From Phycisphaerales bacterium (lineage in GTDB: Bacteria > Planctomycetota > Phycisphaerae > Phycisphaerales > UBA1924): 52,496 bases of DNA. This document shows, one piece after another, positions 20,297-40,169 of the stretch. The notes under the pieces were generated by a model. That model saw nothing but the letters and a program-made list of their open reading frames with translations. It had not been told where the DNA came from and did not search any database. Position 1 is the stretch's first letter, and each line of letters opens with the position of its first letter. The stretch lies in NCBI GenBank assembly GCA_013360695.1, contig JABWBC010000006.1, positions 1 through 52,496 of the forward strand, given 5' to 3'. A program made the translations under genes and the position numbers.

Positions 20297-22291
20297 GTGG
20301 CGGACACGCGTGGCATTCGAGCCGGACGGGCCTTCGTTGAGCTGGGTGTCAGCGACAAGCTGTCGGCTGGTTTGAAGGCGGCCCAGAAGAAGCTTGAAGC
20401 CTTTGGCGCGGGTCTGCGGTCCATCGGGACCAAGATGGCGGGCATCGGCGTCGCGGCGGTGACGGCGCTGCTCGCCACGGCGAAGGCGTTCTCCGACACC
20501 GGGGACGTGCTCGACAAGATGAGCCAGCGGACCGGCGTGAGCGTCGAGGCGCTGTCGGAACTCGGGTACGCCGCGGACCTCTCGGGCACCGATCTGGAAA
20601 CGCTGGAAGCGGGCCTGCGGAACATGCAGAGGAGCCTAGTGGAGGCCGCCAAGGGATCGAAGGGGGCAAACGAGGCCCTCGGAATGCTTGGGCTTACCGT
20701 CGCCGATCTCGCAAAGTTGTCGCCCGATGAGCAGTTCAAGTTGCTCGCCGACCGCATCTCGCAGGTGCAGGACCCGGCCCTGCGGGCGGCGTTGGCACTT
20801 GAGGTGTTCGGCAAGTCCGGCACCAAGCTTTTGCCACTCATGGCCGACGGGGCGGCGGGCATCAACGAGATGCAGGAGCAGGCCCGCAAGCTCGGGCTGA
20901 CCGTGAGCACGGAGACCGCCCGAGACGCAGCCGAACTCAACGATGCCCTCGGCACGCTCTGGAAGGTGCTCAAGCAGGGCGTATTCACCATCGGCGGGGC
21001 GCTGGCACCCACGATCAAGGAACTGACCGAGCGGATCACGCGGGTGGTCGTGAGCGCCACGGCCTGGATCAAGGAGAACAAAGACCTCGTCGTGTGGGCG
21101 CTCAAGGTCGCGGCAGCGGTTGCGGTGGCGGGTGTCGCCATCATCGCCCTGGGGTACATCATCTCGGGAATCGGCGCGGCGCTGGGCCTCGTCGCCGGGA
21201 TCATCGGCGGGATCGGCACGGTCTTTGGCCTGATCGGGGCCGCCATCGGCGCGATCCTCTCGCCCGTCGGCTTGGTCATCGCGGCGATCGTGGCGCTGGG
21301 CGGCGTGCTCGTGGTCGCCACGGGCGTCGGCGGCGAGGCCCTGACTTGGCTTTGCGAACAGTTCACGGCGTTGCGGGAATGGGTCACCAAGGTCGTCGGC
21401 GGTATTGCAGACGCCCTTGCGGCCGGAGACATCGCCCTCGCAGCTGAAATCCTGTGGCTGTCGCTCAAGGTCATTTGGCAGCAGGGCGTGGCGGCGCTCA
21501 ACAAGGCGTGGCTTGGGGCGAAGGAGTTCTTCGTCTCGACGGCCTACGCGATGTGGTACGGCGCGCTGGCGGCTGCGGAGATCGTGTTCCACGCCCTCGA
21601 AGTCGGCTGGATCGAGACGGTCGCGTTCCTCTCCAAGACCTGGACCAACTTCGCCACCGGCTTCCAGATGATCTGGGAAGAGGCGTCCTCCTGGGTCGCC
21701 AAGCGAATGCTGGAGATTCAGGGGCTGTTCGACTCCGGGCTCGACGTGGACGCCGCTAAGAAGGCCGTTGACCAGCAACTGGAATCGCGGCTGGTCGAAC
21801 TGGAGAACGCGGCGCAGCAGACCGTCGCCGCCCGTGAGAAGGAGCGCGAGGCGCAGCGCAAGGATGCGGCCGCGATGCACGAGGCCACGCTCGCGGGGAT
21901 CGGCCAGGACTTCGAGGACGCCCAGAAGGCGCTCAAGGACAAGACGGAGGCGGGGCTCGCGGAGTCGCAGGCCGCCCTGGACGCGGCCAAGAAGAAGCTC
22001 GCGGACGCCATCGAACTGGCCCGCCAGAAGCGCGAGGCTGCTGACGCGGAACGCGGCCCGCGCCGCACGCCCCAGGACCTGATGTCCGAGTTCGAGGACC
22101 GGCTTTCTGGTCTCGGCGACGCCATCGGCAAGGGGATCAGCGTGCGTGGCACGTTTAACGCCCTCGCGGCGCAGGGACTCGAATCCGACGGCGGGGCAGC
22201 CGAACGCACCGCCAAGGCCACCGAGCAAACCGCCAAGCACACCAAGCGGCTTGCCGACGCCGCCCAGAACGGCGGCCTGACCTTCGCCTGA
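20297..22291 (+). CDS. Phage tail tape measure protein
   Basis: This 664-residue protein has an N-terminal tape-measure region (VELGVSDKLSAGLKAAQKKL, with DTGDVLDKMSQRTGVSVEALSELGYAADLSG), long hydrophobic Gly/Ala-rich segments in the middle (VAGVAIIALGYIISGIGAAL and following), and Glu/Lys/Ala-rich coiled coil in the C-terminal third. It sets tail length and is later ejected toward the host membrane. The start is a GTG two bases after the previous stop. At ~664 residues a rather short tail is expected (about 100 nm by the usual 0.15 nm per residue rule). Confidence 0.85.
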   Translation: MADTRGIRAGRAFVELGVSDKLSAGLKAAQKKLEAFGAGLRSIGTKMAGIGVAAVTALLATAKAFSDTGDVLDKMSQRTGVSVEALSELGYAADLSGTDLETLEAGLRNMQRSLVEAAKGSKGANEALGMLGLTVADLAKLSPDEQFKLLADRISQVQDPALRAALALEVFGKSGTKLLPLMADGAAGINEMQEQARKLGLTVSTETARDAAELNDALGTLWKVLKQGVFTIGGALAPTIKELTERITRVVVSATAWIKENKDLVVWALKVAAAVAVAGVAIIALGYIISGIGAALGLVAGIIGGIGTVFGLIGAAIGAILSPVGLVIAAIVALGGVLVVATGVGGEALTWLCEQFTALREWVTKVVGGIADALAAGDIALAAEILWLSLKVIWQQGVAALNKAWLGAKEFFVSTAYAMWYGALAAAEIVFHALEVGWIETVAFLSKTWTNFATGFQMIWEEASSWVAKRMLEIQGLFDSGLDVDAAKKAVDQQLESRLVELENAAQQTVAAREKEREAQRKDAAAMHEATLAGIGQDFEDAQKALKDKTEAGLAESQAALDAAKKKLADAIELARQKREAADAERGPRRTPQDLMSEFEDRLSGLGDAIGKGISVRGTFNALAAQGLESDGGAAERTAKATEQTAKHTKRLADAAQNGGLTFA

Positions 22292-23119: not shown

Positions 23120-24148
23120 ATGGGCGATGCCTTCCGCAAAGTCCGTTCGGGCCAACCGCTCCGCATCCCGGCGGCGGCGTACAACGCGTTCGTGGACGCG
23201 GCGGTCGACCTGCGTCGGCGCGAGCGGGACAACTTCGCGGGGCCGCTGGTGGACGCGGCGCAGCGCGGCATCGTGCTAGTCCGCAACGATTCGGACGAGG
23301 ACATCGACCCGTACCACGCGCTGGCGATCACGGGCGTGCTGGTCGAACCCGACAGCGAGGATCAGGAACGGACCTTCCACAGCCGCACGCCCCTGACGGG
23401 CGAGATCGCCACCGAGGAGTCGCCGCCGCTGTCGTTCGTGGTCGCGCTCCAGCCGATCAAGCCCGGCAAGCTCGGGCGCTGCGTGCTCACCGGCGTCACG
23501 CCCGCCCGCGTGCTTGTCGGCAACGAACTGGACACCACTTGTGAGTTGGCCTCGGAGGAGACGGTGCTGGCCAGCACGCCGATGGGCGGCATCCCGATGC
23601 TGTGGAAAGAGGAGGGCATGGGCGAGAAGTGGGCGGTCATCGAGATGGGTCGCCCGTCCCTCGGGCGTGTCGCGGCGATCCTTGGGGTCGCACAGCCCAT
23701 CCCGACCGAGCACAATCGCTGGCGCTACCCGTGGCAGGAAGCCCGCATCGACGGTGATCCGGGCAGCGACACCTACATGCGGTACGTCTCCGTGCCAGAA
23801 GGGCTGTCGTCGCAGGCGGTAGGCGGAGGCGAAGACCCGATGCGGATGGCGATCAATCGCTTCGAGGCCCACCACATGAACGACTCGGAGCCCGGCTCCG
23901 GCTTCGGCGGCCTGCTGGGGCTCGGACCAGTCTGCGAGTTGCCGGGTGTGCTGCCCAAGTGCCCGCCAGCGCGGTCGCTCAAGCCCAAGCTCGTGCCCAT
24001 CCCCGACGGCGTGTGCGTGCAGCTCACCAGCGAGCGCGACAGCAAGGGCAAGCCGGTATGGGTCTTCGAGGCCATGAGCTTGATCGAGATCGCCGACCCT
24101 GCGGACGAGAACCGTAAGTTCAACCTCTACGTCGAGGGGGGATCATGA
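23120..24148 (+). CDS. Tail-tip structural protein (hypothetical)
   Basis: This 342-residue protein begins MGDAFRKVRSGQPLRIPAAA, followed by YNAFVDAAVDLRRRE, a start I associate with phage virion proteins of unknown role in this kind of phage. The remainder is beta-rich (GIVLVRNDSDEDIDPYHALA; RCVLTGVTPARVLVG) and has two cysteines close together near residue 275. It is three bases after the previous stop and its own stop overlaps the next start (ATGA). Confidence 0.6.
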   Translation: MGDAFRKVRSGQPLRIPAAAYNAFVDAAVDLRRRERDNFAGPLVDAAQRGIVLVRNDSDEDIDPYHALAITGVLVEPDSEDQERTFHSRTPLTGEIATEESPPLSFVVALQPIKPGKLGRCVLTGVTPARVLVGNELDTTCELASEETVLASTPMGGIPMLWKEEGMGEKWAVIEMGRPSLGRVAAILGVAQPIPTEHNRWRYPWQEARIDGDPGSDTYMRYVSVPEGLSSQAVGGGEDPMRMAINRFEAHHMNDSEPGSGFGGLLGLGPVCELPGVLPKCPPARSLKPKLVPIPDGVCVQLTSERDSKGKPVWVFEAMSLIEIADPADENRKFNLYVEGGS

Positions 24149-24744
24149 CAGCCGCGCCTCCCGCCTCCCCGCCCACGACCAGCCTTGACACCCGCCGCGA
24201 GCACGAGCGGAGCAAGTACGTTGCGCTGGCGTCTCGTGCTGGCGCTCCTGGCACAGGCTACGGCGCAACGAACCACGGCGCGGCGGCGATCCCGCTGGTA
24301 CTCAAGCACAAGCCCCGTCTCGTCGTGGACTTCGGCTGCGGCCGCAACGATTTTATCGGCGCGCTGCGCCGGCTCGGCGTCGACGGGCTGGGGATCGACT
24401 TCGCGTTCCCCGAGGCGGACATTCCGCGGGCCATGCACAAGACCGCATTGCTCGACGGCATCGCGGACGTGGTCACCAGCTTCGATGCCTTGGAGCACCT
24501 ACTCCCCGAGGACGTTGACCCCGTGCTCGCAGAAATGCGGCGCGTAGCGAAGAAGGGCGGCCGATTCGTGTTCTCGATCTGCACCCGCCCGAGCAAAACG
24601 ACGGTTGCTGGCGAGGGGCTGCACCCCACCGTGCAGCCTCTTGCGTGGTGGCTGGAGCGCATCGGGCGCGTCGGCACCGTGTCGGCTCCAAAGGCCGAGG
24701 GTCGGTACATCGTCGGTCGGTTCAGGGGGTGCGGTTGTGCGTGA
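24145..24744 (+). CDS. Class I SAM-dependent methyltransferase
   Basis: This 199-residue protein carries a Rossmann methyltransferase core: motif I VVDFGCGRNDFIGAL, an acidic residue after the second strand (GIDFAFPEAD), SFDALEHLLPEDV, and a GGRFVFSI strand. No DNA methylase signature (DPPY-type) is present, so a small molecule, glycan or protein substrate is more likely. It is translationally coupled to the tail genes on both sides and is followed by a DUF115-like protein, which suggests modification of virion glycans or host surface sugars; that is inference. Confidence 0.75.
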   Translation: MTAAPPASPPTTSLDTRREHERSKYVALASRAGAPGTGYGATNHGAAAIPLVLKHKPRLVVDFGCGRNDFIGALRRLGVDGLGIDFAFPEADIPRAMHKTALLDGIADVVTSFDALEHLLPEDVDPVLAEMRRVAKKGGRFVFSICTRPSKTTVAGEGLHPTVQPLAWWLERIGRVGTVSAPKAEGRYIVGRFRGCGCA

Positions 24745-25648
24745 GAACCAGTCCGACATCACGGCGCTCCAGGCAGGACTCAAGGCCAAGAAGCCCACGC
24801 GGGACGGCCTGCGTCTCTACACCGCCGATTTCGACTCCGTGTCGCTGGCGGGCTTCTATCGCGGGCGCTCGGCGTTCCTGATGCTGTCCGGCCCGTCGCT
24901 CAACCAGGTCGATCTCACGCAGCTCAACCGTCGCGGCATCGTCACGATGGCCGTGAACAATGCATGGGCCGTGCATCGCCCCACGCTCTGGACGTGCGTG
25001 GACGACCCCGGACGGTTCATCGACACCGGCTGGAAAGACCCGGGCATTCTGAAGTTCGTGCCGATGTGCTGCTGGGACAAGCGGCTCCGCATCCAGAATC
25101 CCGACGGCAGCATGCGAGCGAGCGCGTTCCGCGTGCGGCAGATGCCCAGCGTCATGTTCTTCCGCCGCGCTGACCACTTCGATCACGAGCGTTTTCTGAC
25201 CGGCGATTCGGTCCCCTGGGGCAACGACGCCAAGCACGCCGACTCCCTCGGCATCACCGGCAAGCGAAGCGTCATGCTCGTGGCACTGCGTCTTCTGCAT
25301 CACCTGGGCTTCTCGACCGTGTACCTCCTCGGCTGTGACTTCAAGATGGGAGCGGATCAGAAGTACGCCTTCAGCGAGCACCGGGCCGCAAACGCCATCC
25401 GGCACAACAACGTACTTTATGACTCATTGGCACGAAGATTCGAGGCGCTGCGCCCGCACTTCGAGAAACACCGATTCCGTGTGGTCAACTGCTCGCCCGG
25501 CAGCGCCCTGACGGCATTTGACCGGTTGGAGTTCGCCGACGCGGTGGCCGCCGCGTCCGCCGAGTGCGGCAAGCCCGTAAGCACGCAGGGCTGGTACGAG
25601 CCGAATCTTCCCTCCCAGACGAAGCCGCCCCAGGAGGCCGCCCGATGA
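24737..25648 (+). CDS. DUF115/MptE-like protein
   Basis: This 303-residue protein has GRSAFLMLSGPSLNQVDL, where a GxGPSL-like loop opens a Rossmann-type domain as in DUF115 proteins, followed by MAVNNAWAVHRPTLWTCVDD, FSTVYLLGCDFKMG and a C-terminal VVNCSPGSALTAFDRL. DUF115 relatives include glycosyltransferase-like enzymes (flagellin glycosylation) and a pterin pyrophosphokinase. GTG 24737 has AGGGGG 7 bases upstream and overlaps the methyltransferase gene by 8 bases; both could act on one sugar substrate. Confidence 0.65.
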   Translation: MRENQSDITALQAGLKAKKPTRDGLRLYTADFDSVSLAGFYRGRSAFLMLSGPSLNQVDLTQLNRRGIVTMAVNNAWAVHRPTLWTCVDDPGRFIDTGWKDPGILKFVPMCCWDKRLRIQNPDGSMRASAFRVRQMPSVMFFRRADHFDHERFLTGDSVPWGNDAKHADSLGITGKRSVMLVALRLLHHLGFSTVYLLGCDFKMGADQKYAFSEHRAANAIRHNNVLYDSLARRFEALRPHFEKHRFRVVNCSPGSALTAFDRLEFADAVAAASAECGKPVSTQGWYEPNLPSQTKPPQEAAR

Positions 25649-27054
25649 GCGACGGTCCCACCCGCTACTACTTATACATCCCCGTCTGGGCGACGGGCCG
25701 TCCGCCCCAGGGCGGCGGTTCGAGCAACTACTCGACCCCGTCGGGTACGGACACGCCCGACAGCTCGTACTCGACGCCGACCAGCACGCCGAGCATGCCG
25801 TCGAGTTACGAAACGACCGGCGACGTGATGTTCACGACCGGTCCGGGGGGCACCCGGACGCTGACGACCTACACCACTGGCGCCTTCACGAGCCAAACCT
25901 CGGGCACGACGCACACGCCATCGAGCAGCGGCAGTTCCGATTCGATGCCGACCAGCTCGTCGGCCTCGTCCAGCGGCACGCCCACCTCCTCTTCGGGCAG
26001 TTCGTCCTCGGGATCGTCCTCATCCAGCGGATCATCTTCGTCGGCATCTTCATCCTCCAGCGGTTCATCCTCATCCGGATCGTCGTCGAGCGGCTCTTCC
26101 AGTGGATCGTCGAGTGGTTCGGGCTCGTCGTCCGCGAGCAGCGCCCAGAGCAGCGGCATGTCAAGCGGCCCGTCATCAGGCGGCAGCAGCGGCATGAGCT
26201 CCGGCGGTGGCACCTCGGGCGGCGGATCGAGCGGGCCAGGTGGTTCTGGTCCCGGCAGCAGCGGGCCTGGAGGCACCGGCCCCGGCGGAACTGGGCCCGG
26301 CGGGACTGGCCCCGGCTCCAACCCTAGCAGCAACTGCGTTCTCTTTGGGACGCAGGTTCGGTTGGATGATGGCCGCGAGATCCCCATCGAGGACCTAAAG
26401 CCGGGAGACACTGTGTGGTCGCTCCAGGTGGCGGGGCTGGAAGTTGATGTCCCGTACCGCGCGCAGTACGAATGGGTCTCGCAAGACGGGCTCCAGGGCT
26501 CAACGCGGGTCCCGGCCCGTGTGACGAGCGTCCTCCTGGGAGAGCACGTTGGGTACATCATCATCAACGGCCAGATCAAGGCCACACCGGAACACCCGTT
26601 CTTGATCCGCCGCGGCGACGAGTGGGGATTCGCATCTGCGGAGCTGATCAAGCCGGGAGACTACCTCATCGACGAGGCCTTCAGCGAGAAACTCGTGGCG
26701 TCGGTGGAGTTCAAGGATGAGCTGGCGCGAACCGTCGCCCTCACCATTCCCGGCACCAACACGTTCCTCGCCGCTGGCATGTGGGTTCACCACGATCTGC
26801 CCTCGACCTCGCAAAGCTCGGGTTCGGTCAGCGGCTCCGTCTCCGGGTCGGCAAGCGGCCCAGGCTCGGGCTCCGAGGCAAGCGGCTCGGGCTCTGGTTC
26901 GACCAGCGGCACTTCCAGCAGCAAGTCGACCTCCGGCAGCAAGTCGAGCGGATCGTCGTCCTTCTCGACCTCGGGTTCTACATCCGGGACGGGCTCGGGC
27001 ACCGCCAGGACAAGCCTCACGCTCTCTGGTGGGACCGGAACGTACTCCCTCTGA
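25645..27054 (+). CDS. Ser/Gly-rich protein with internal Hint (intein-like) domain
   Basis: This 469-residue protein has three parts. Residues ~25-230 are a Ser/Gly/Thr/Pro low-complexity region, mostly S/G runs, then GTGPG repeats. Residues 231-384 are a Hint domain: Cys231 starts CVLFGTQVRLDDGREIPIED then LKPGDTV, block B is TPEHPF (Thr314, His317), and the end is NTFLAAGMWVHHD (His382-His383-Asp384). Residues 385-469 are a second Ser/Gly-rich region. Hint domains cleave, splice or form esters at their N-terminal Cys; the usual final Asn is Asp here. It is coupled to tail-region genes and is the last late gene, so a virion tail or fibre role is likely. Confidence 0.8.
   Translation: MSDGPTRYYLYIPVWATGRPPQGGGSSNYSTPSGTDTPDSSYSTPTSTPSMPSSYETTGDVMFTTGPGGTRTLTTYTTGAFTSQTSGTTHTPSSSGSSDSMPTSSSASSSGTPTSSSGSSSSGSSSSSGSSSSASSSSSGSSSSGSSSSGSSSGSSSGSGSSSASSAQSSGMSSGPSSGGSSGMSSGGGTSGGGSSGPGGSGPGSSGPGGTGPGGTGPGGTGPGSNPSSNCVLFGTQVRLDDGREIPIEDLKPGDTVWSLQVAGLEVDVPYRAQYEWVSQDGLQGSTRVPARVTSVLLGEHVGYIIINGQIKATPEHPFLIRRGDEWGFASAELIKPGDYLIDEAFSEKLVASVEFKDELARTVALTIPGTNTFLAAGMWVHHDLPSTSQSSGSVSGSVSGSASGPGSGSEASGSGSGSTSGTSSSKSTSGSKSSGSSSFSTSGSTSGTGSGTARTSLTLSGGTGTYSL
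25960..26335 (+). repeat. Low-complexity Ser/Gly-coding tract with GTGPG tandem repeats
   Basis: The DNA is dominated by TCG/TCC/AGC/GGC codons encoding Ser-Gly runs. It ends in near-perfect 15-base units encoding GTGPG (about 26272-26320). Such tracts expand and contract by slippage, so the length may vary between relatives. Confidence 0.7.
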
Positions 27055-27546: not shown

Positions 27547-27678
27547 AGGTGCAACAGCTTTTCAACCGCTGTGCGACAGCTTTGCAACTGGCCACTCTCT
27601 CCGTCGCGGTACGGTCTTCCAGTTCGCCGGGCCGTGCAGAGCCCGACAGCTCCAAGACCTTGCTTGAGAGGACTCACG

Positions 27679-29235
27679 ATGACGGCCACATCTTCGCCCG
27701 AGAGCCCCGCGCAGCCTACCCCAGCGGCGCAGTACGTCCGCATGTCCACCGAGCACCAGCAGTACTCCACGGAGAACCAGCGGGACGCGATCGCGGAGTT
27801 CGCGCGCGCCCGCGGCTACGAGATCGTCAAGACCTACGCCGACGACGGCAAGAGCGGGCTCAGCATAGAGGGCCGGGCATCGCTGCGGCAGATGCTGACC
27901 GACGTGGAGAGCGGAGCGGCCCCGTTCCGGGCCATCCTTGTCTACGATGTGAGCCGCTGGGGTCGGTTCCAGGATGCCGACGAGAGCGCCTACTACGAGT
28001 ACGTTTGCAAGCGGGCCGGGATCAAGGTCGAATACTGCATGGAGCAGTTCGCCAACGACGGCAGCCCGGTCTCCACCATCATCAAGAGCGTCAAGCGGGC
28101 GATGGCCGGAGAGTACAGCCGGGAACTCTCGAACAAGGTGTTCAAGGGGCAGTGCCGGCTCATCCAACTGGGCTTCCGCCAGGGCGGCCCCGCCGGATAC
28201 GGGCTCCGCCGCATGCTCCTGGACGTGAGCGGCACGCCCAAGGGCGTGCTCAAGCGCGGCGAGCAGAAGAGCCTCCAGACCGACCGCGTCATCCTCGTTC
28301 CCGGCCCGGAAGAGGAGGTCCGGACCGTCCAATCCATCTACGAGCAGTTCGTCAAGCATGGAAAGAGCGAGCGGACGATCGCCGACGGCCTGAACGCGTC
28401 CGGCGTCGCGTCGGGCTGCGACCGTCCGTGGACCCGGAGCATGGTCCACCAGATCCTGGCCAACGAGAAGTACATCGGGAACAACGTCTACAACCGGGTT
28501 TCGTTCAAGCTCAAGAAGAAACGCACCGTCAATCCCCCCGACATGTGGGTGCGCTCCGACGGGGCGTTCGACGCGATCGTCGAGCCCGAGTCCTTCTTCA
28601 TGGCGCGGGGCATCATCCAGGAGCGAAACCGGCACTTTACCGACGACGAGATGCTGGCGCGGCTGAAGACGCTGCTGGCGGTCCACCCCGAACTGACCGG
28701 CGCCCTCATCGACGAGACCGACGGCATGCCGTCGAGCTCGGCGTACCGCACCCGCTTCGGAAGCCTGGTGAACGCGTACCGGCTGGCGGGATACACGCCT
28801 GAGCGCAACTTCGAGTATCTGGAGGTCAATCGTCAATTGCGGCAGGCCCACCCGCAACTCCTGGGCGACATGATCCAGGACCTGCAGACGATGGGGGCGA
28901 CCGTTGAGCGCGATGAATCCTCCGACGTGCTAGTAATCAACGGGCTCTACAGCGCATCGCTCTACCTGGCCCGCTGCCGGTCCACACCAGCTGGCTCGCA
29001 TCGATGGCGATTCCGCGTGCCCGAGGAGCGGGCGGCCGACATCCACATCATCGTGCGGATGGACCCCGCCAACGAGCAGCCCACCGACTACTTCCTGCTG
29101 CCGACGCTGGACATCGAGATGCCCGAGTTCCGACTGGCGGAGTTCAACGGGGCGTCGATCGACACGTTCAAGTTCGAGTCCCTGGAGTTCTTCTTCGGCA
29201 TGGCGAAGGTCGTCCAGATCGAGGTGGCCGCATGA
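27679..29235 (+). CDS. Large serine recombinase
   Basis: The N-terminal catalytic domain shows Tyr19, Arg21 and nucleophile Ser23 in YVRMSTEHQQYSTENQ, then KTYADDGKSG and VYDVSRWGR. A recombinase domain follows (PPAGYGLRR-like GGPAGYGLRR and NPRERWTRSMVH-type 'WTRSMVHQILANEKYIGN'), then about 200 residues of extra C-terminal sequence instead of a clear zinc ribbon/coiled coil. It probably integrates the element. ATG 27679 has GAGAGGA 7 bases upstream. The ATGA overlap with the first ParB-like gene and the second following one base later mark a three-gene operon. Confidence 0.85.
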   Translation: MTATSSPESPAQPTPAAQYVRMSTEHQQYSTENQRDAIAEFARARGYEIVKTYADDGKSGLSIEGRASLRQMLTDVESGAAPFRAILVYDVSRWGRFQDADESAYYEYVCKRAGIKVEYCMEQFANDGSPVSTIIKSVKRAMAGEYSRELSNKVFKGQCRLIQLGFRQGGPAGYGLRRMLLDVSGTPKGVLKRGEQKSLQTDRVILVPGPEEEVRTVQSIYEQFVKHGKSERTIADGLNASGVASGCDRPWTRSMVHQILANEKYIGNNVYNRVSFKLKKKRTVNPPDMWVRSDGAFDAIVEPESFFMARGIIQERNRHFTDDEMLARLKTLLAVHPELTGALIDETDGMPSSSAYRTRFGSLVNAYRLAGYTPERNFEYLEVNRQLRQAHPQLLGDMIQDLQTMGATVERDESSDVLVINGLYSASLYLARCRSTPAGSHRWRFRVPEERAADIHIIVRMDPANEQPTDYFLLPTLDIEMPEFRLAEFNGASIDTFKFESLEFFFGMAKVVQIEVAA

Positions 29236-31104: not shown

Positions 31105-32214
31105 ATGACCTCGTCGGTGGCCAAACTCGAACCTCTCCGGGCGCTCAATGCGATCTGCCCGTACTACACCATGTTCCCGCTGGACTTTCCGCTCCGCGTA
31201 CTTCGCGGGCGCGCAAAGAAGGGCGACTGGGTCGTTGACCCGTTCTGCGGGCGAGGAACTACGAACTACGCGGCGCGAATGCTGGGACTGTCCTCGTTTG
31301 GCATCGACAGCAGCCCCGTGGCGGTCGCGCTCACCAAGGCGAAGCTAGCGGATGCACGCGTGTGCGACGTCGTGCGTGTCGCCATGAGCATTCTGGACTC
31401 CATGCCCGATCGCGTGTACGTGCCACAAGGTGAGTTTTGGGAGCTCGCGTTCGAGCACTCCGTGCTCAAGCAAGTCTGCTGGCTTCGAAAGGAACTGCTG
31501 CGGGACTGTTCGAGCGATTCGCGGCTGCTCTTGCGGGCCATCCTCCTGGGGGCACTTCATGGTCCTCGGACCAAGTCGGCCGCTTCGCATCTGTCCAATC
31601 AGTGCCCACGCACATTCGCTCCAAAGCCCGACTACGCGGTTCGGTTCTGGCGGAAGCGACGCATGAAGCCGCCCGCAGTGGACGTCATCGAAGTGGTCAG
31701 AACACGAGCTCGCAGGTATCTCTCGGAACGACCCCAACACACGCCGGCGCAGGTCGTCCTCGGAGACAGCCGCACTGCCGTGGTGTTTGGGAAGCGCAAG
31801 TTCCGCTGGGCAATTACCTCACCGCCATACTACGGCATGCGGACGTACATCCCGGACCAGTGGCTTCGCAGTTGGTTCCTGGGTGGGCCCTCCAAGGTGG
31901 CCTATCGACCGCCGGACAGGGAGATGGACCACGGTTCGGCCGACGCCTTCGCAGATGACCTCCGTAAGGTCTGGAAGGGCATCGCTACACACGCCTCCGA
32001 CGATGCGAGGCTTGTGATCCGGTTCGGCGGGATAGCCGACCGCGACGTAGACCCGGTGGAGCTACTAAAGGCCTCGCTCGACGATTCCGGGTGGCGACTC
32101 ACAACAGCAGTGTCGGCCGGAGATGCAAACTCTGGGCGTCGCCAAGCAACGCAGTTCGTCCACGGCGGGCCTGCACCGCGGGAAGAACACGATTTCTACG
32201 CCGAGTTGGCCTAG
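31105..32214 (+). CDS. TSPPY-type DNA methyltransferase (probable N4-cytosine)
   Basis: This 369-residue protein has SAM motif I VVDPFCGRGTTNYA (Asp45) near the N-terminus and catalytic motif IV TSPPY (238-242), followed by YGMRTYIPDQWLRSWF. TSPPY with this order is typical of N4-cytosine methylases. It lies at the edge of the defence island and converges on herA, sharing CTAG as both stop codons. An ATG at 31036 gives a 23-residue non-conserved extension. It is the likely self-protection enzyme for the HerA-NurA pair; that pairing is inference. Confidence 0.82.
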   Translation: MTSSVAKLEPLRALNAICPYYTMFPLDFPLRVLRGRAKKGDWVVDPFCGRGTTNYAARMLGLSSFGIDSSPVAVALTKAKLADARVCDVVRVAMSILDSMPDRVYVPQGEFWELAFEHSVLKQVCWLRKELLRDCSSDSRLLLRAILLGALHGPRTKSAASHLSNQCPRTFAPKPDYAVRFWRKRRMKPPAVDVIEVVRTRARRYLSERPQHTPAQVVLGDSRTAVVFGKRKFRWAITSPPYYGMRTYIPDQWLRSWFLGGPSKVAYRPPDREMDHGSADAFADDLRKVWKGIATHASDDARLVIRFGGIADRDVDPVELLKASLDDSGWRLTTAVSAGDANSGRRQATQFVHGGPAPREEHDFYAELA

Positions 32215-34340
32215 GCGCGAATCTGAATCAGGTACGTGCTGCCGTCCCTCTTGTCGGTTCGCCACTTCACGTCGCGCGGACCGAAGATCGCATCCATCGC
32301 CTCCGAGACGAAGCGGTATGCAAACTGATTGCGATCATCCATCGATTCCGGCAGCGCTCCCTCGAGGATCTTCGTCGCGTGACCCCATTTCGCGCCGTCG
32401 GCGTTCATCTTCTGCATGAACCCGGTGTGTGTGCGGAGCACTTCGATTGCCCGCTCCTTCATCGCCTGCAGTGCATCCACGGGGCGAGGTTCCGACGTCC
32501 CGTCACTTCGCGCCTCATCGTCCCCACCGACGGACACGGGCGCAACCGAGCTGTTCGCGGGCACCGTCACTGGCCGCGCCGGCATCAGCTGCGACGCATA
32601 CTTGGTCCTGAGAGTGGTTGCGAATGTCGTCACCTCGGGGCGAGAGTAATCCTCATCGAGGCGGCGATACAGCTTCTCGAACGACAGCGCTCGGAACGGG
32701 ATGGGGTAGGGCTTTCCGGCCACGCTGCTCCAGAACACGCCCTGGCCGACGATGGGCTCGTTCAAGAGTGAGCTGAGCAGGTCGCCACTGAAGTGCGCAT
32801 TGGCGTTCTGGACATTCCGCAGATCCCCGGCAGACAGCAGGTGAAACAGGAACCAGTTGTCGCCTTGGCTCAAGATCTCGGCAGGAATGCTCCCCGGCTG
32901 CTGGGTGATCAGCAACGCACCCAGATCGTACTTGCGACCTTCCTTCACCCACTCGATGTACGGCCGCGACGCTGGCGCACGGTCGTTCAGAACAGACTGG
33001 GCCTCCTCGACGACCGCGATGGTTGGGATCGTCCGTGGCGTCGCCTTCGTGAACTCCTCCTGGTTTCGATCGAAGATGCGTCGCAGAATGATCCCCGAGA
33101 GACTCAGGGCTGGACCGCCGCGCAGCTGCGACACGTCCACAATGCAGAGCTTCCCTGCCGATAGCGCCTCCAACAGCATGTCCATCAGCTGGCTGCTGCG
33201 ATCATGGATCATCTCGACCACGCGCGTCATGTTGGATCGTGCTGCGAGCGCTTCCATTTCCTGACTGTCGAGCAACCGCAGGAGGTCCTTGATCTGATCG
33301 ATGTCGGCGCTGTTGCGGTGTTCGTCGATGAGATCGACGAGCTGGCCCCAGCGTCCCTGATCGAGACCCTTGATCTTGGCCACGTTCTGCTGGTCTTGCT
33401 TCTCTTCCGAAAGCGTCAGCGAAATGATGTCGGCGGGACGGAAGCGCCGGATGTCCAGCTTAATGCCGCCCGCGATGAACGATCCGTAGAACCGGCTAGG
33501 CGGCTCCCGCGACGTGAACACCACGATCTTGTCCTGAAGCTCAGGTACATCGCACAGTCCAGGCCGTCCCTTGTCGTCTGGCCAGAAGTACTCGCCGTCG
33601 GGGTCGAAGATGACGGTGCCAACCGGGACCCTCCGTCCCGCCCGTTTCTCGACGGTGGGGGTCTCCTTGTAGAGGTTGCTGAACAGCAGTTTGTTGAGGT
33701 TGGACTTGCCGAAACCGGCGCGCGCGAACACAAACGTGCGCCGTGAGATCAGGCTGCGCACTGCGAACTTGACCAAGACAGACGGGCTCTTGGTCTGCAT
33801 CCACGACTCGGCCTGGAAGGTTGGCTCCCCAGTGGAGTAGATGTACTCGCCCATCGCAAGGTGGCCGATGGGAACACCGTCGACGTTGTGGCCCGCGACT
33901 TCCTTCAGCACGGCGGGAGAGAGGAAGGCGACGGGGCTACCAACGTGCGGCAGCCGCCGGTGAGACGCCACGAAGTCGAGGGACCCTGAAGCGTGTCGCC
34001 TCAAAACGCCCAGGACTCGGATGTTCACCCGGTACTTGAGATAGTCCTCGCGCAGGTGTTCGGACACTGGCCGCCGTTCCCGGATCGCGCGGATGGTGAA
34101 GTCCTCGCCGCTGTTGCCGGTAAGCCGGCCCTCCGAAGAAAGCGAAGTGATTCTGCCCAGCACGGCTTCATCCTCGTTCTCCAGCTGAACGAGCAGGAAG
34201 TGGCCGTGCATCGGAGTGTTGTGGAAATCCGTGCGATACGGGAGCGCCAAGTCCGCATGAAACTCCAGGCCGCCCTCCCGGAACCCGCGGAACATGCCGA
34301 CGATTTCGCTCGCGGGAAACAGTTCCAGTCGTTCGGCCAT
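32211..34340 (-). CDS. herA: HerA-like ATPase/translocase
   Basis: This 709-residue ATPase has the HerA/FtsK-like layout: an N-terminal beta-barrel (HAS) region, Walker A FARAGFGKSN (Lys212), HDPDGEYFW-like 'VIFDPDGEYFW', a Walker B IAVVEEAQ, a GRKYDLGALLITQQP sensor region and a C-terminal YPIPFRALSFE. HerA hexamers translocate DNA and work with the nuclease NurA in archaeal end resection; in bacteria HerA partners nucleases in phage defence. A GGAG site precedes the ATG, 12 bases after the stop of the NurA-like gene, so the two form a unit. Confidence 0.87.
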   Translation of the reverse strand: MAERLELFPASEIVGMFRGFREGGLEFHADLALPYRTDFHNTPMHGHFLLVQLENEDEAVLGRITSLSSEGRLTGNSGEDFTIRAIRERRPVSEHLREDYLKYRVNIRVLGVLRRHASGSLDFVASHRRLPHVGSPVAFLSPAVLKEVAGHNVDGVPIGHLAMGEYIYSTGEPTFQAESWMQTKSPSVLVKFAVRSLISRRTFVFARAGFGKSNLNKLLFSNLYKETPTVEKRAGRRVPVGTVIFDPDGEYFWPDDKGRPGLCDVPELQDKIVVFTSREPPSRFYGSFIAGGIKLDIRRFRPADIISLTLSEEKQDQQNVAKIKGLDQGRWGQLVDLIDEHRNSADIDQIKDLLRLLDSQEMEALAARSNMTRVVEMIHDRSSQLMDMLLEALSAGKLCIVDVSQLRGGPALSLSGIILRRIFDRNQEEFTKATPRTIPTIAVVEEAQSVLNDRAPASRPYIEWVKEGRKYDLGALLITQQPGSIPAEILSQGDNWFLFHLLSAGDLRNVQNANAHFSGDLLSSLLNEPIVGQGVFWSSVAGKPYPIPFRALSFEKLYRRLDEDYSRPEVTTFATTLRTKYASQLMPARPVTVPANSSVAPVSVGGDDEARSDGTSEPRPVDALQAMKERAIEVLRTHTGFMQKMNADGAKWGHATKILEGALPESMDDRNQFAYRFVSEAMDAIFGPRDVKWRTDKRDGSTYLIQIRA

Positions 34341-34352
34341 CGGATCTCCTTC

Positions 34353-35510
34353 TCATTGATACCGTCGTGCTGCCGGGTCCTCGTCCGCCAGCGAAAACTC
34401 GTCCAGGACGGCCCGGTGCTCCCCGAGAGTGTCCCGGATCGCCGAGTAGATCGCGTCCTGAAGGATGACCATGTCGAAGTCCACCAGTGCGGCATGCTCG
34501 TGCGCTTTCTGGAGACACATGGGATAGAACGGCACGGGGAACCCCTCATTGGCATCTGCGAGCAAATAGCTCAGAATCGTGCCGGCATCCCCGACCTGCG
34601 GGTCAAACACGTCGATCGGCCACACGGGGTCATGGGGACGCGAGCCAAACTTCACGAAGAACATGTGGCCCGCCACAAACTTGTTCGCCTCGCCACCCTG
34701 CCCGGCCTCGGCGTCACCACGCGCGTACTCGCTCCAGACGTAGGCCTTCATCTCGATCTCGCGCGGCACTTGCACATAACACGGATAGGGATGACGCATG
34801 ACCCCTTCGAGCGCCATTGCCAACTGGTACCGCTGGAGCACCTTGCTGTGCTTTGCCACTCCGGCAACCAGCACGCGTCGACGTCGAGTACGGAACTGCT
34901 CATCCACACCCTCCTTGAGCTTGGCAACGATCTTCGGGAAGTTCCCCCCTCTGAACACCTTGCTCCGCAGGAAGCCGTCCCTCACGATGACGGTGTCAGA
35001 GCCGAAAGGCGTCTCCCGAACGAAGGTGAGCAGAAAGGCCCACTCCATGATCTCCCGATACACCTGAACCCAACTAGGAGAAATGGGCTCGCGAGGCTTT
35101 GTCGGATCAGGGGGCCTCGGGATCATGTGCGACAGATCCCACAATGTGCGCACGCCGATCGCCTCCATCATCCGGCCGAGCGCGGTCTTCCCCTTCCCGC
35201 TTGCATCCACGTGCTTGTCGTTCAGAGCGGAAATGTCGCTCGTCGGCGTGACCGCCTCGAGGCAGTACTCGTGATTGTTCGAGTCCACCACGCGGACCAA
35301 CTGCACCAGGAACGGATCGAACTGGACCTTGTTGTTGCCGCCATCCGAACCGACAAGGGACACAGCGGTCGTGGAGCGCGGTTGAATGCGGCGAGTGTCC
35401 GCGTTCAATGCGCGGATTTCGGCACGGAGGTCATCTAACAATGCACGATCCTCAGCCATTCGCTGCTGCATCTGGCGTCGCAGTTCTTCAAGGCTTTGAG
35501 GTTCGATCAT
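34353..35510 (-). CDS. nurA: NurA-domain nuclease
   Basis: This 385-residue protein fits the NurA nuclease family: SLVGSDGGNNKVQFDP near residue 55 (acidic metal site), TVIVRDGFLRSKV, VAGVAKHSKVL, and a C-terminal EHAALVDFDMVILQ. NurA is a 5'-3' exonuclease/endonuclease that acts inside the HerA ring. The ATG at 35510 has GAGG about 10 bases upstream; a frame 18 bases longer exists. It is separated from Res by 91 bases that include a TACACT-like box, so nurA-herA may have its own promoter in addition to readthrough. Confidence 0.8.
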   Translation of the reverse strand: MIEPQSLEELRRQMQQRMAEDRALLDDLRAEIRALNADTRRIQPRSTTAVSLVGSDGGNNKVQFDPFLVQLVRVVDSNNHEYCLEAVTPTSDISALNDKHVDASGKGKTALGRMMEAIGVRTLWDLSHMIPRPPDPTKPREPISPSWVQVYREIMEWAFLLTFVRETPFGSDTVIVRDGFLRSKVFRGGNFPKIVAKLKEGVDEQFRTRRRRVLVAGVAKHSKVLQRYQLAMALEGVMRHPYPCYVQVPREIEMKAYVWSEYARGDAEAGQGGEANKFVAGHMFFVKFGSRPHDPVWPIDVFDPQVGDAGTILSYLLADANEGFPVPFYPMCLQKAHEHAALVDFDMVILQDAIYSAIRDTLGEHRAVLDEFSLADEDPAARRYQ

Positions 35511-35579
35511 TCTGTTGCGCCCTCGCACGCCCGGTTCAATTCAACTCCGCCGCCTGCTTCGATGTCGTGGATTGATGCG

Positions 35580-35585
35580 AGTGTA
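35580..35585 (-). promoter_or_regulatory. Candidate -10 box before nurA-herA
   Basis: Read on the minus strand, GGATACACTCGC contains a TACACT hexamer about 70 bases before the nurA start, in the only real gap (91 bases) of the six-gene minus-strand run. Confidence 0.35.
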
Positions 35586-35601
35586 TCCTCAGTCTTGGTG
35601 G

Positions 35602-38337
35602 TCACACCGACTTGCGAGCAGCGGCCGCGTCGACGGTATATTGCTGCGCGATCCCCTTGAGAGTCATGTTCGCCGCGACCGCATCGTGTGGCACAAGCAC
35701 ATACTTCCACGCTTTGCCACCGATGCCCTGCGAGTACTCGCTGGCCTGCTTGCACCATTTCACCGCTGCGTCCCGTTTGGCGAGAACCTCAACGTCGTCC
35801 ATCGCGTTGGCCGCCTTCGGCTCAAGCATGTAGATCGCCGAGTCCGCCTCGGCGACGAAGTCCGGCTGGTACTCCAGATGATGCCCGCCGTGCTGATAGA
35901 AGATCTGGAACTGGCCCTTGGCGGGCTTGAACCACTTCTGCGCATCGCGGTCCAGCACCCCCGCCAACTTGCGCTCGGCATCTGACTGGAACTTCTGCAC
36001 CGGATACAGGCACCGCTCGAAGCCGCCGAACAGGTACTTCGCCATGTTGCTCTTGTCGGGCGGTGCTTCCTTGAAATCCCGGACGGTCTCCACCGCCGAT
36101 GCGGTGTAGGCGCTGGGCTTCAGTTCCGAGAAGCCCTTGCTGATTTTCACCTCGTACCCGCTGGCCTCCTCCCAGTAGTGCTCCTGCATCTGGGCGTGGA
36201 CGAACTGCGCGATGGGCTTCTGGTAACAGCGCAGCACTTTGCGGGCATCCTCTTCCGGCAGGTATGAACGCAGATGCTTCACCACCTGGCCCGCCAACTC
36301 GTACAGGTACTCCGCGTGGTCGTCGTAGGAGACATCGTCGAAGTCCACGAGCCCGCTGACGACGTAGTCCTCGGGCTTGGCCTCCTGGATGCCGCCCTTG
36401 CCGAGCGACAGCACCTCGCGGGCATTCGTTCGCAGGTGCTGAATCCACAACTCCTCGGAGGGAGCCTGATACCGCATGGAGTCCAGTTTCAGCGTGAACG
36501 GCTTGAAGCCGCACCGAACCTCACCCGTGGGCACGACAAGGATGCGTGGGATGTCGATTGTCTGCTTCACGACCATCGCGGCCGTCTTGGCGACGATCGC
36601 CGCGATGTCCACCTCGGGCTTCATGCCGGGAAGGTCCGGCTGAACAGGCCGATACTGCGCCGTCACCTGCTTCACCAACTCGGCCTGAACGGAGGCATCC
36701 TGCAAGCGTGCAACGCTGGGCACCGCCTTGGGCTGGCTCTCCAGTTTGCGGATGGCCGCATAGGCAATCTGCGCGGCCTGCTGCTCCCCCGGCGACTCGA
36801 ACGCGGGGGCGGCGCTCGCGGGCGCAACGAGCGTGCTGGATGTCTGCTGCGGCGGGGTGACGCCGAGCGAAGATGCCAACTGTGACTGTGCCACCACCGT
36901 GACGGTGCGCTCGGCCAACTGGGAGCCCGTGATGACGACCTGCTGGAGCCGGATCGCCGACCCCGGCTTGCTCGCCTCGTCCACGATCTCCTGGAACTTG
37001 TCGTGGGCGACGATGTTCAACCGATCGACCACGTTCACGCCCGTCCGCTTGCCATACGGCAGCCGCAGCCCGCGGCCGATGGATTGCTCGATCAGGATGC
37101 GGGCGTTCGCCGCCCGCAGGGGCACGATGGTGTACAGGTTGGTGACATCCCAGCCTTCCTTGAGCATGTTGACGTGGATGACGATCTCCGTCGGCTCGTC
37201 CGTGCTTTCCACGGCGAGGAGCTTCTTGATCATCTCGTCCTCGTCCGCGCCGGTCATGCTCGAATCGACCTGGATCACCTTGTCCTTGTACCGGCCGACC
37301 CCCTGCTCGTCAGGGAAGAAGCCGTCCGACTTGATCATCTGAAGCAACTGCCCCGCGTGCGTGGTATCGCGGGCGATGACCAGTAGGAACGGCTTCACGA
37401 TCTTGTTGTTGGTCTCGCGGGCATAGGTCTCCAGTTCGACCTTCACGCTCTCATGCAGGCGGACACCATCCTCCAACTTCATCCGCTCGATCTCTTCGGC
37501 GGACATGCCTGCCGGATTGAAGTCCTTCCGCGTGACGACGGCGGGCTCTTTCACAAACCCATCCGCCATTGCCCGTGCCAACGGGTAGTCGAAGATCACG
37601 TTCTTGAACGCGACCGCGCCCTTGCTCGTCTCCACGAACGGTGTGGCGGTCAGTTCCAGCCCAAGGATCGGCTTGAGGTCATTGATCGCCCGAACGCCCG
37701 CTGATGCACGATAACGGTGCGATTCGTCCATGAGCAGCACGAGATCGTCGAGCCCCGCCAGGTAGTCGAAATAGGGCTGGCCCAGGTATTCCGCCATCCG
37801 CTTAATTCGCGGCGACTTGCCGCCGCGAACCTCGGAGTTGATCTTCGAGATGTTGAAGATGTTGATCTTGCAGGTATCCGGCTGGTCGAAAAGGTTGGCG
37901 GCGAGCGACTCGTAGGTGTCGCCGGTGATGATCGCCGGCGGCTCCACAGCGAACTCCGCGATGCCTCGGAACACGTACTTGGGCGTGTTTTCGGTGAAGT
38001 CAGCGATGAGCTTGTTGTAGATCGTCAGGTTGGGCGCGAGCACGAAGAAGTTCCGCACCTCCTGGGCACGGTACAGGTACGCGATGAAGGCGCCCATGAG
38101 TCGCGTCTTGCCGACGCCGGTGGCGAGTGCGAAGCAGATCGATGGGAACTCCCGCTCGAAGCTGCTAACGCTGGGGAACTCGCTCTGAATCGCGGCGAGC
38201 GCCTGCGCGGGGTCGGCACCCTTGTCGAGGGAGATGATGTCGCACACGCGTGAGAGGATTTCCAGTGATTCGCGCTGGGGCGCACGGAGACTCAGGCGGC
38301 TGGCAATGGGGCTGACGGCGGGATTGATGGGGTTCAC
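35602..38337 (-). CDS. Type III-like restriction subunit (Res), helicase-nuclease
   Basis: This 911-residue protein has SF2 motif I ATGVGKTR (Lys77), motif II LLMDESHR, motif III LELTATP, and motif VI QSIGRGLRLPYG. A C-terminal PD-(D/E)xK nuclease is visible: YQPDFVAEADSAIYMLEPKA. This order is that of type III Res subunits, which cleave after meeting another Mod-Res complex. It is somewhat shorter than EcoP-type Res (~970). It starts at a GTG with GGGGGG 6 bases upstream in a GTGA overlap with mod. Confidence 0.87.
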   Translation of the reverse strand: MNPINPAVSPIASRLSLRAPQRESLEILSRVCDIISLDKGADPAQALAAIQSEFPSVSSFEREFPSICFALATGVGKTRLMGAFIAYLYRAQEVRNFFVLAPNLTIYNKLIADFTENTPKYVFRGIAEFAVEPPAIITGDTYESLAANLFDQPDTCKINIFNISKINSEVRGGKSPRIKRMAEYLGQPYFDYLAGLDDLVLLMDESHRYRASAGVRAINDLKPILGLELTATPFVETSKGAVAFKNVIFDYPLARAMADGFVKEPAVVTRKDFNPAGMSAEEIERMKLEDGVRLHESVKVELETYARETNNKIVKPFLLVIARDTTHAGQLLQMIKSDGFFPDEQGVGRYKDKVIQVDSSMTGADEDEMIKKLLAVESTDEPTEIVIHVNMLKEGWDVTNLYTIVPLRAANARILIEQSIGRGLRLPYGKRTGVNVVDRLNIVAHDKFQEIVDEASKPGSAIRLQQVVITGSQLAERTVTVVAQSQLASSLGVTPPQQTSSTLVAPASAAPAFESPGEQQAAQIAYAAIRKLESQPKAVPSVARLQDASVQAELVKQVTAQYRPVQPDLPGMKPEVDIAAIVAKTAAMVVKQTIDIPRILVVPTGEVRCGFKPFTLKLDSMRYQAPSEELWIQHLRTNAREVLSLGKGGIQEAKPEDYVVSGLVDFDDVSYDDHAEYLYELAGQVVKHLRSYLPEEDARKVLRCYQKPIAQFVHAQMQEHYWEEASGYEVKISKGFSELKPSAYTASAVETVRDFKEAPPDKSNMAKYLFGGFERCLYPVQKFQSDAERKLAGVLDRDAQKWFKPAKGQFQIFYQHGGHHLEYQPDFVAEADSAIYMLEPKAANAMDDVEVLAKRDAAVKWCKQASEYSQGIGGKAWKYVLVPHDAVAANMTLKGIAQQYTVDAAAARKSV

Positions 38338-40169
38338 TTGCGACCCCCCTTGGTTTCAGCCGATTGGCTCCCGAACAAGTCCGGCTCTGCTGCCTTCGCC
38401 TTCCGAGCGCCACGCAGCACGGGCATCGGCTCAATCGAGTCTGCGGCGGGTGGGGGCGATGGCATCGCATGGATGGCAAGGCTGTAGTCGTCCTTGCCCC
38501 ACTCGCATTTCGACATCACAGCCTTGGGGATCTTCTTGACGGTCAGGTTGGGGAACGTGCCCTTGCCCGTGAACGCTTTGCACACCACTAGCAGCGTCCG
38601 TCCGTCTCCGACCTCTTCACTCAACTGCTGGAGCTGATCACGAGTCAGTGTCTGCGTGGTGACGTAGATGAAGTCCCGCTCCGTCGAGTGTCCATGCTGC
38701 CAGTATGTCCAATCGCTCGGGGCGTAGGCAAAGCCCTCCAGCTTGCACACGGCCTCGGCGAGCATGTTGGCGTTGAATTCCTTACTGATCACCCAGTTGC
38801 CGAACTTGTCCTTTTCAAGGAGTGATGGCGCGAGCCGCGAGTAGCGGAACCCGCCGCCGCCCCTCCAGCCAGTAGTCTCAGTCACACCGCTGGCGTCCTG
38901 GCCATCGATGATTTTCTTGAGGCGGGGAACGATATGGGAGTCACAGTGTTCGCCGATCTCGACCATAATCCATCGCCGTCCCATCTTGTGTGCGACTGCC
39001 CCAGTCGTACCAGACCCAGCAAACGAATCGAGGACCCAGTCGCCAGGCGAAGTGACCAAGTCGAGGAGGCGCTTCAAGAGCACCTCAGGCTTCTTGCCGC
39101 GTCTGAAGTCCACTCCCCCCTCATTTGCCAGGTCTGCCTTCGGCAACTCAGCGTGAGACCAAAAATCTGAGAGTTTGTTCGTCTTGACGACCTGGCCGTC
39201 CCTCACCTCCGCGGTATCTGCAAGCCAAGCAAACACTTGTCCATTGAGGTAGTAGGCGGTGATCTGCTGACCTTCACGCTTGCCGCGAGAAACCAAGTAG
39301 TCCGCCGAGAAAAGGCCATCGCCACAATGCGACAGGATGCGGGTCTGGAATTCGTTTTCCGCCTGAATGCTCGTATTGCGAAAGATCTTCGGGAAGTGGG
39401 TGATGTACTCAGCCAAGATCTCGTCCTGCCGCTCCTCGAAGCGCCGAAGGGAAATGGTGTCGATCTTCTCGCCGTGGTGCTGATAGATCACTACCGGTTC
39501 GCCTGTCGACGGCGCAATGAACCGCGCAACCTCTGTTCGAGAGCCGGGGGACACAAACACCCGGCTGTAGCGTTTCATGTCCTTGGCTTCGAGGGGTGTC
39601 GCACCCCGGTTGTCTGCGACCTGGAACTTCGCACGGTCGCGTGCATAGCACAGGATGTACTCGTGGGTATTCACGAGGAAGCTGCCACCCTGTCCGATTC
39701 CAGAAACTCCGGACCTCTCGTAGGCGACCTGGCCGAGGAAGTTGTACCGACAAAACAGCTCGTCCAGCATCACCTTCAGATAGTGATTCTCCTCCTGATC
39801 AAGATGCACAAACAACACGCCTTCGGGTGACAGCAGTCGGTGGATCAGTTCGATCCGTGCGGCCATCATCGCGAGCCACGTACTGTGCTCCAGTCCATCG
39901 TCATAGTGCTCGAACGCTTGGCCAGTGTTGAATGGCGGATCGATGTAGACGCACTTGATTTTGCCGGCAAACTCAGCCTCCAGCGCCTTGAGCGCCAGCA
40001 GGTTGTCGCCCTGAATCAGGCGATTGTCGAACTGATCATTCTCGGCGACTCGATGGGCAGCGTGGTATGACTTTGAGGGGTCCTCCAGAAGAATGCGTGG
40101 CTCCAATCGCGGCCGATTCTCCTTGCCGATCCAGGTGAGTTCGAGTTTCTGTTTCCTCTGCATGCTCAC
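38334..40169 (-). CDS. Type III-like DNA methyltransferase (Mod)
   Basis: This 611-residue protein has catalytic motif IV CVYIDPPFNTG (Asp77-Phe80) ahead of SAM motif I LDSFAGSGTTG (Asp381), the class beta order of type III Mod N6-adenine methylases, with target-recognition sequence between. An opening RLIQGDNLLALKAL is also typical. It would provide site specificity for Res. It starts at GTG 40169, with AGGAAT upstream, in a GTGA overlap with the AIPR gene; an internal ATG at 40163 is two codons later. Confidence 0.88.
   Translation of the reverse strand: MSMQRKQKLELTWIGKENRPRLEPRILLEDPSKSYHAAHRVAENDQFDNRLIQGDNLLALKALEAEFAGKIKCVYIDPPFNTGQAFEHYDDGLEHSTWLAMMAARIELIHRLLSPEGVLFVHLDQEENHYLKVMLDELFCRYNFLGQVAYERSGVSGIGQGGSFLVNTHEYILCYARDRAKFQVADNRGATPLEAKDMKRYSRVFVSPGSRTEVARFIAPSTGEPVVIYQHHGEKIDTISLRRFEERQDEILAEYITHFPKIFRNTSIQAENEFQTRILSHCGDGLFSADYLVSRGKREGQQITAYYLNGQVFAWLADTAEVRDGQVVKTNKLSDFWSHAELPKADLANEGGVDFRRGKKPEVLLKRLLDLVTSPGDWVLDSFAGSGTTGAVAHKMGRRWIMVEIGEHCDSHIVPRLKKIIDGQDASGVTETTGWRGGGGFRYSRLAPSLLEKDKFGNWVISKEFNANMLAEAVCKLEGFAYAPSDWTYWQHGHSTERDFIYVTTQTLTRDQLQQLSEEVGDGRTLLVVCKAFTGKGTFPNLTVKKIPKAVMSKCEWGKDDYSLAIHAMPSPPPAADSIEPMPVLRGARKAKAAEPDLFGSQSAETKGGRK

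Follow-up and report, generated by a model that had tools for sequence, protein, structure and literature searches.

What is an intein-like domain doing in the middle of a serine- and glycine-rich phage protein? The question is raised by contig JABWBC010000006.1 of a Phycisphaerales bacterium (GCA_013360695.1), one contig of a 3.84-Mb MAG, whose 52,496 nucleotides were analyzed as a single stretch and are called the window below. The gene in question encodes a Hint domain placed between two low-complexity arms (Table 1). Its start codon (ATG, 25645) overlaps the stop codon of the gene before it, and its own stop lies at 27052-27054; the open reading frame, its coordinates, and the residue numbers (Cys231, TPEHPF with His317, and His382-His383-Asp384) were right in the preliminary description of this DNA. 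The N-arm opens with MSDGPTRYYLYIPVWATG, and the Ser/Gly richness ascribed to both arms is borne out by their composition: Ser, Gly, and Thr account for 166 of 230 N-arm residues and, in the C-arm, for 67 of about 85. The first 92 residues of the arm protein are present in 35 of 301 genomes of the order, and no family for the Hint protein was found in PHROGs.

Table 1. Features of the Hint gene and its neighbors in the window
Feature	Position	Strand	Remark
Tape measure protein, opens tail module	20297..22291	+	
gp342, virion-module protein	23120..24148	+	First ~180 aa fused to Ser/Gly-Hint elsewhere
Methyltransferase	24145..24744	+	Same co-occurrence with YLYIPVWA-type arm proteins as the next gene
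Glycosyl/sialyltransferase-like (MptE-like) gene	24740..25648 (start approximate)	+	Always with YLYIPVWA-type arm proteins
Ser/Gly-rich Hint protein, 469 aa, final gene of structural module	25645..27054	+	
N-arm, residues 1-230, Ser/Gly/Thr-rich, without Lys	25645..26334	+	
Conserved peptide YYLYIPVWATG at N-arm start	25666-25698	+	
Asn230-Cys231, predicted N-terminal processing junction	26332..26337	+	Asn(-1) and Cys1 in 133/133 homologues
Hint domain, residues 231-383, without homing endonuclease	26335..26793	+	
Block B TPEHPF, residues 314-319	26584..26601	+	Catalytic His317 at 26593-26595
His382-His383-Asp384, C-terminal processing junction	26788..26796	+	His383 in place of the family's terminal Asn; conserved Asp at +1
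C-arm, residues 384-469, Ser/Gly-rich	26794..27051	+	
GSKSSGSSSF, conserved C-arm Lys motif	26935..26964	+	Lys433 at 26941-26943
Serine recombinase 3' of structural module	27571..29235	+	

The Hint gene closes the structural module of a Phycisphaerales prophage. Terminase, portal, head protease, tape measure, gp269, gp342, methyltransferase, and sialyltransferase/MptE-like genes precede it in that order, and an HTH regulator, the serine recombinase, and ParB/RepB-like genes follow, an arrangement that fits the earlier proposal of a last virion gene. The same order is conserved in Phycisphaerales prophages and IMG/VR contigs, where the Hint gene occupies the slot after tape measure, gp269, gp342, methyltransferase, and glycosyltransferase. 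Members of the Hint family occur in at least 51 of the 301 genomes of the order, with up to 6 copies per genome, and close relatives are found on at least 47 IMG/VR contigs; named relatives come mostly from Phycisphaerales MAGs. When viral contigs were queried with the whole window protein there were no matches, because the query is of low complexity; the Hint alignment retrieved 57 loci from them. Six loci bear titles from outside the Planctomycetota (L043, L059, L067, L105, L106, and L108, titled Dehalococcoidia, Leptolyngbya, Rhizobiaceae, Nevskiales, and Cyanobacteria) and are probably misbinned or mislabeled planctomycete phage contigs. Among the neighbors, gp342 gave a poor AlphaFold2 model (pLDDT 53) and no matching phage records, and a PDB sequence search returned nothing for the glycosyltransferase-like protein. 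The window also holds a defense-like island on the minus strand (32211-44910) encoding a HerA/DUF87 helicase, a type III restriction enzyme and methyltransferase, an AbiU-like protein, and a DrmD-like SNF2 helicase; since homologues of the island adjoin the Hint gene at locus L037, it seems to be phage cargo.

That residues 231-383 form a Hint domain, as first proposed, is agreed by Pfam, profile searches of the PDB, an AlphaFold2 model, Foldseek, and VIA. For the protein alone the Pfam Intein_splicing model matches at 2.6e-5, below its curated cut-off, and the PT-HINT model gives a weak match (0.0057), likewise below cut-off; the toxin domain that would follow a PT-HINT domain was looked for and is absent. 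When PDB sequences were searched with a profile of relatives, the best match was the BIL domain 2lwy (9.8e-7). The AlphaFold2 model, built with 38 family sequences, has a pLDDT of 88.4, and Foldseek places two BIL domains first (6y75, 4.4e-9; 2lwy, 6.0e-9) among 58 PDB matches at E<=0.001, the best 50 of the 58 being all BIL, intein, or Hog structures. With VIA, the Z values are 20.0 (6y75) and 19.1 (2lwy) for the BIL domains, 19.1 for the Ssp DnaB mini-intein, and 17.2 for Hog 1at0. The modeled domain thus certainly has the horseshoe-shaped HINT fold, and since the BIL and mini-intein values tie, the distinction between the two classes must rest on residues.

These residues were compared across 133 distinct complete Hint domains. 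In this set, whose counts are partly conditioned in that part of it was collected with motif patterns including NC or TxEHP, Asn(-1), Cys1, T-x-E-H, and the penultimate His are each found in 133 of 133 homologues and the terminal Asn of a His-Asn end in 131; among the loci found by profile or whole protein, a motif-free selection that overlaps the larger set, Asn(-1) is present in 58 of 58 and His-Asn in 57 of 58. The +1 residue is never Cys or Ser, but Asp (124), Thr (3), Ala (2), Gln (2), Tyr (1), or Asn (1). A domain that runs from Cys1 to His-Asn without a +1 nucleophile is an A-type BIL, and mainly cleaves at both of its ends (PMC4031507, PMC7765530, PMC7664689). Judged by its residues, the family carries this A-type BIL signature. 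The window copy has the N-terminal Cys and the block B TxxH (Cys231 and T314-P-E-H317), a non-nucleophilic +1 residue (Asp384), and no homing endonuclease, but ends in His-His where 131 of 133 relatives end in His-Asn; with one defining residue missing, “BIL-like” should be its proper name. It also departs from class 1 inteins at both the +1 residue (Asp384) and the terminal position (His383). The preliminary description had taken the usual terminal Asn to be replaced by Asp; Asp384 is in fact the +1 residue, Asp in 124 of 133 domains, and the position of the Asn is held by His383. Its preference for a processing domain over a selfish intein therefore survives as a BIL reading and loses the reason given for it, while the Hog option that it offered alongside is weaker, because the relatives keep the His-Asn pair and Hog structures score below BIL. 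Its statement that no homing endonuclease is present holds for the 153-residue Hint domain, which gives no endonuclease match, and for every other family member; a homing-endonuclease intein was rejected on this ground. Among relatives the Hint domain is under purifying selection, with dN/dS of about 0.06-0.27 in most pairs. Asn(-1) lies outside the domain, in an otherwise variable low-complexity arm, so its conservation points to selection acting on the N junction itself. From the conserved residues, cleavage at Cys231 would be predicted.

The family was compared with the closest known systems. A-type BIL domains (e.g., 2lwy from Clostridium thermocellum) are likewise endonuclease-free HINT mini-domains with Cys1 and TxxH, share the C-terminal His-Asn with 131 of the 133 relatives, lack a +1 Cys or Ser as the family does, and are also located in variable low-complexity regions. 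Unlike them, the family has an invariant Asn(-1), a mostly Asp +1 residue, a Lys motif in the C-arm, and a fixed position in a phage structural module, and the window copy lacks the terminal Asn. The top structural match, BIL2 of the Tetrahymena thermophila BUBL1 locus (6y75, 6tmm), processes a polyprotein-like arrangement, but is eukaryotic, shares only about 20% sequence identity, and has other flanking domains. Class 1 mini-inteins (Ssp DnaB, 1mi8) share the fold, Cys1, block B TxxH, and, in the relatives, His-Asn; in contrast to them, the family lacks a +1 nucleophile save for Thr in 3 members, lies outside any conserved enzyme site, and is hosted by an arm that also exists without a Hint and with variable ends.

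The window copy is an outlier within its family. Only it (His383) and the copy at locus L085 (Asp) lack the terminal Asn among the 133 domains, and these two share the highest number of departures, 4 each, at 42 near-invariant positions; their end branches in the tree measure 0.47 and 0.42, against a median of 0.027. Compared with its relative L127, gp342 is 97% identical whereas the Hint domain is merely 67% identical, with a dS of 1.06 instead of 0.34 and a dN/dS of 0.21. Nucleotide identity to L127 is 0.8-0.95 upstream, drops to about 0.7 where the Hint begins, and does not recover before the gene ends (26302-27054), indicating that the window Hint and C-arm have their own, faster or exchanged, history. 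The dN/dS of 0.21 between the window Hint and its nearest phage relatives exceeds that of the L127-L053 pair (0.063), and constraint on the window copy may be relaxed; the Asn loss, the 4 departures, and the long branch suggest that it may be decaying. A plain pseudogene was rejected, because the reading frame is unbroken, every catalytic residue of the N side is retained, and dN/dS is 0.21. The His codon at position 383 (CAC) may be an assembly error, as the sequence comes from one MAG, although the divergence spans the whole Hint and not one base. With Asn replaced by His, only the N-side reaction at Cys231 would be expected of this copy. A second family member in the same genome, on contig C45, has a normal His-Asn end.

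Two architectures place the module in its wider context. In the first, the arm opens with YYLYIPVWA and, counted where the locus extends far enough, an intact gp342, the methyltransferase, and the transferase adjoin it. In the second, the N-terminal ~180 residues of gp342 are joined directly to Ser/Gly-Hint, and the C-terminal part of gp342, the methyltransferase, and the transferase are absent. This fusion links the Hint module with gp342, which belongs to the tail-side module. At L117, L119, L167, and L039, gp342 is split across two tandem reading frames, each with its own Ser/Gly-Hint module. Relative to the reference L050, group B phages are 87% identical at the N-terminus, 82% in gp342, and 83% in GT, but 55% in the Hint, whereas group C phages are 37%, 47%, and 73% identical in these parts and 78% in the Hint. 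Such discordance indicates that arms have exchanged their Hint domains, for which recombination within the repetitive DNA of the arms is the probable route. Three homologues, one in genome G024 and two in G156, have no Hint but keep the arm. The G024 protein is a 251-residue arm protein that ends without a Hint, and in the two G156 prophages (L241 and L242) the Hint body is deleted and the arm ends in an acidic tail; in L242 a downstream frame still reads EGVWVHND, the end of the deleted Hint, and L241 retains a similar, more damaged remnant. All three lack the entire C-arm, and hence its Lys motif. The arm is therefore the part that persists, and the Hint is not indispensable.

A previously unnoticed motif is shared by 132 of the 133 C-arms: K-x-S-[G/S/N]-S-S, after which comes F, M, S-F, or a similar ending. 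The strict pattern is matched by 128 of the 133, and four of the five misses are small variants (KSSGSSAF, KSNGSSM, and KSSGSSL twice). Between 19 and 57 residues separate it from the Hint, and the Lys and the Ser residues at +4 and +5 are invariant in 70 distinct 20-mers. N-arms are nearly free of Lys (9 in 104 arms, 21,520 residues in all). A fixed Lys in a Lys-poor tail beside a domain predicted to form a thioester is a natural candidate acceptor, but could as well be part of a binding tag.

Hint domains also appear in other phage structural proteins. In unrelated jumbo phages a Hint ends a collagen-like protein annotated as a virion structural protein. As in our family, the protein of Alexandravirus-type jumbo phages (NC_061446.1, MPK69_gp107) has a fibrous low-complexity stretch followed by a Hint, here near the C-terminus and with about 30% Hint identity; it differs in having collagen-like repeats in place of Ser/Gly, about 11 residues after HN, no Asn(-1), and no Lys motif. 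At the corresponding locus (L210, NC_061446.1 68189-76611) and in about 60 jumbo-phage records, gp107 is a Gly-X-Y protein ending in AHN-T plus 10 residues, and homologues in Dickeya phages JA29 and JA13 match residues 1-322 of gp107 only and seem Hint-less. The IMG/VR loci L171-L177 (e.g., L171:3707-4846) have an internal Hint with a VHN-K end, set between the N- and C-terminal parts of a protein that we assigned by eye as lambda gpI-like tail assembly protein; here too an intein-like domain resides in a tail protein, and its +1 residue is non-nucleophilic.

The presence of an A-type BIL-like Hint in a phage structural module is thus real, and we consider it probable that the gene encodes an auto-processing virion-appendage protein composed of a Ser/Gly/Thr arm, the Hint, and a C-terminal tail. 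Gene order, the gp342 fusion, and the annotation of the jumbo-phage analogue point to the arm as a virion appendage. BIL domains without a +1 nucleophile mainly carry out N- and C-cleavage (reviewed in PMC7664689, PMC4031507). From the residues present, Cys1 would be expected to attack the Asn(-1) carbonyl in an N-S acyl shift at Asn230-Cys231, assisted by His317. The arm would then leave as a thioester, to be hydrolyzed or taken by an amine; alternatively, the Asn thioester could free itself through cyclization of the Asn(-1) side chain. In 131 of 133 relatives, though not in the window copy, cyclization of the terminal Asn is expected to cut off the tail; in the window, Hint and tail are predicted to stay one fragment of about 239 residues. 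The product that matters would be an arm with a defined C-terminus, and co-occurrence leads us to guess that the neighboring transferase may decorate the Ser-rich arm. Cleavage, its timing, the location in the virion, and the use of the arm are what we infer from this pattern.

A more tentative reading, which we hold to be unlikely, makes the Hint a built-in phage-fiber ligase: the thioester of the arm at Cys231 would be passed to the amine of the motif Lys, in the same or another subunit, giving isopeptide-linked Ser/Gly arms in a branched or polymeric fiber, perhaps glycosylated by the neighboring transferase. The persistence of the Lys motif in all but one C-arm despite its variable spacing would suit such welding, as would the near absence of Lys from N-arms and of the motif from the three Hint-less homologues, and A-type BIL splicing is itself thought to proceed by amine attack on the thioester (PMC4031507). 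However, a conserved Lys peptide is equally explicable as a docking or binding motif, which is why we rate this reading low; the Hint-less homologues have lost the whole C-arm and so fit both readings alike; and in the relatives the C-arm would be released by Asn cyclization.

Less likely still is that the Hint is a decaying or passenger intein without function, exchanged between phages in tolerant low-complexity arms, its window copy now being lost. Hint-less homologues with vestiges, the mosaic exchange of the Hint relative to its neighbors, and the lost Asn and long branches of the window copy and L085 would all be consistent with a passenger. Yet no member has a homing endonuclease, the catalytic residues are invariant in more than 130 sequences, even at Asn(-1) outside the Hint, and the C-arm Lys motif is conserved too. 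Moreover, canonical splicing is impossible in most members, which lack a +1 Cys, Ser, or Thr, and a passenger would therefore wreck the protein that hosts it.

Hog domains lack the His-Asn pair, and a sterol-recognition region follows their Hint. It is very improbable that the thioester is attacked, as in Hedgehog, by a sterol, lipid, or sugar of the cell so that the arm becomes lipidated or stuck to the host envelope: the HINT fold match to Hog 1at0, the N-S acyl shift chemistry expected in both, and a window copy left with the N-side reaction only would agree with this, but the Hog Z of 17.2 lies below the BIL values, 131 relatives keep the terminal Asn, and no sterol-recognition region was found after the Hint, where an 86-residue Ser/Gly arm without a known-domain match stands instead.

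The auto-processing reading thus has the Hint domain probably trimming, and perhaps welding, a virion appendage. A search of the open-access literature for Hint or BIL domains in phage virion proteins returned only enzyme inteins (TerL, ribonucleotide reductase) and reviews, which is no proof of novelty, and a description of intein-derived protein cross-linking in virions was not found there. We know of no natural role for most BIL domains. Here a BIL-type domain has a fixed slot in a virion module, in at least 51 of 301 genomes of the order and in dozens of viral contigs, and Asn(-1), Asp(+1), the Lys tag, and the Hint-less natural controls open its function to direct testing. Should the Hint indeed cut or weld its own arm, these phages would mature an appendage through intein chemistry, and the domain would provide new tools for thioester chemistry and ligation; if the ligase reading is true, they would possess an intein-derived protein cross-linking system in their virions.
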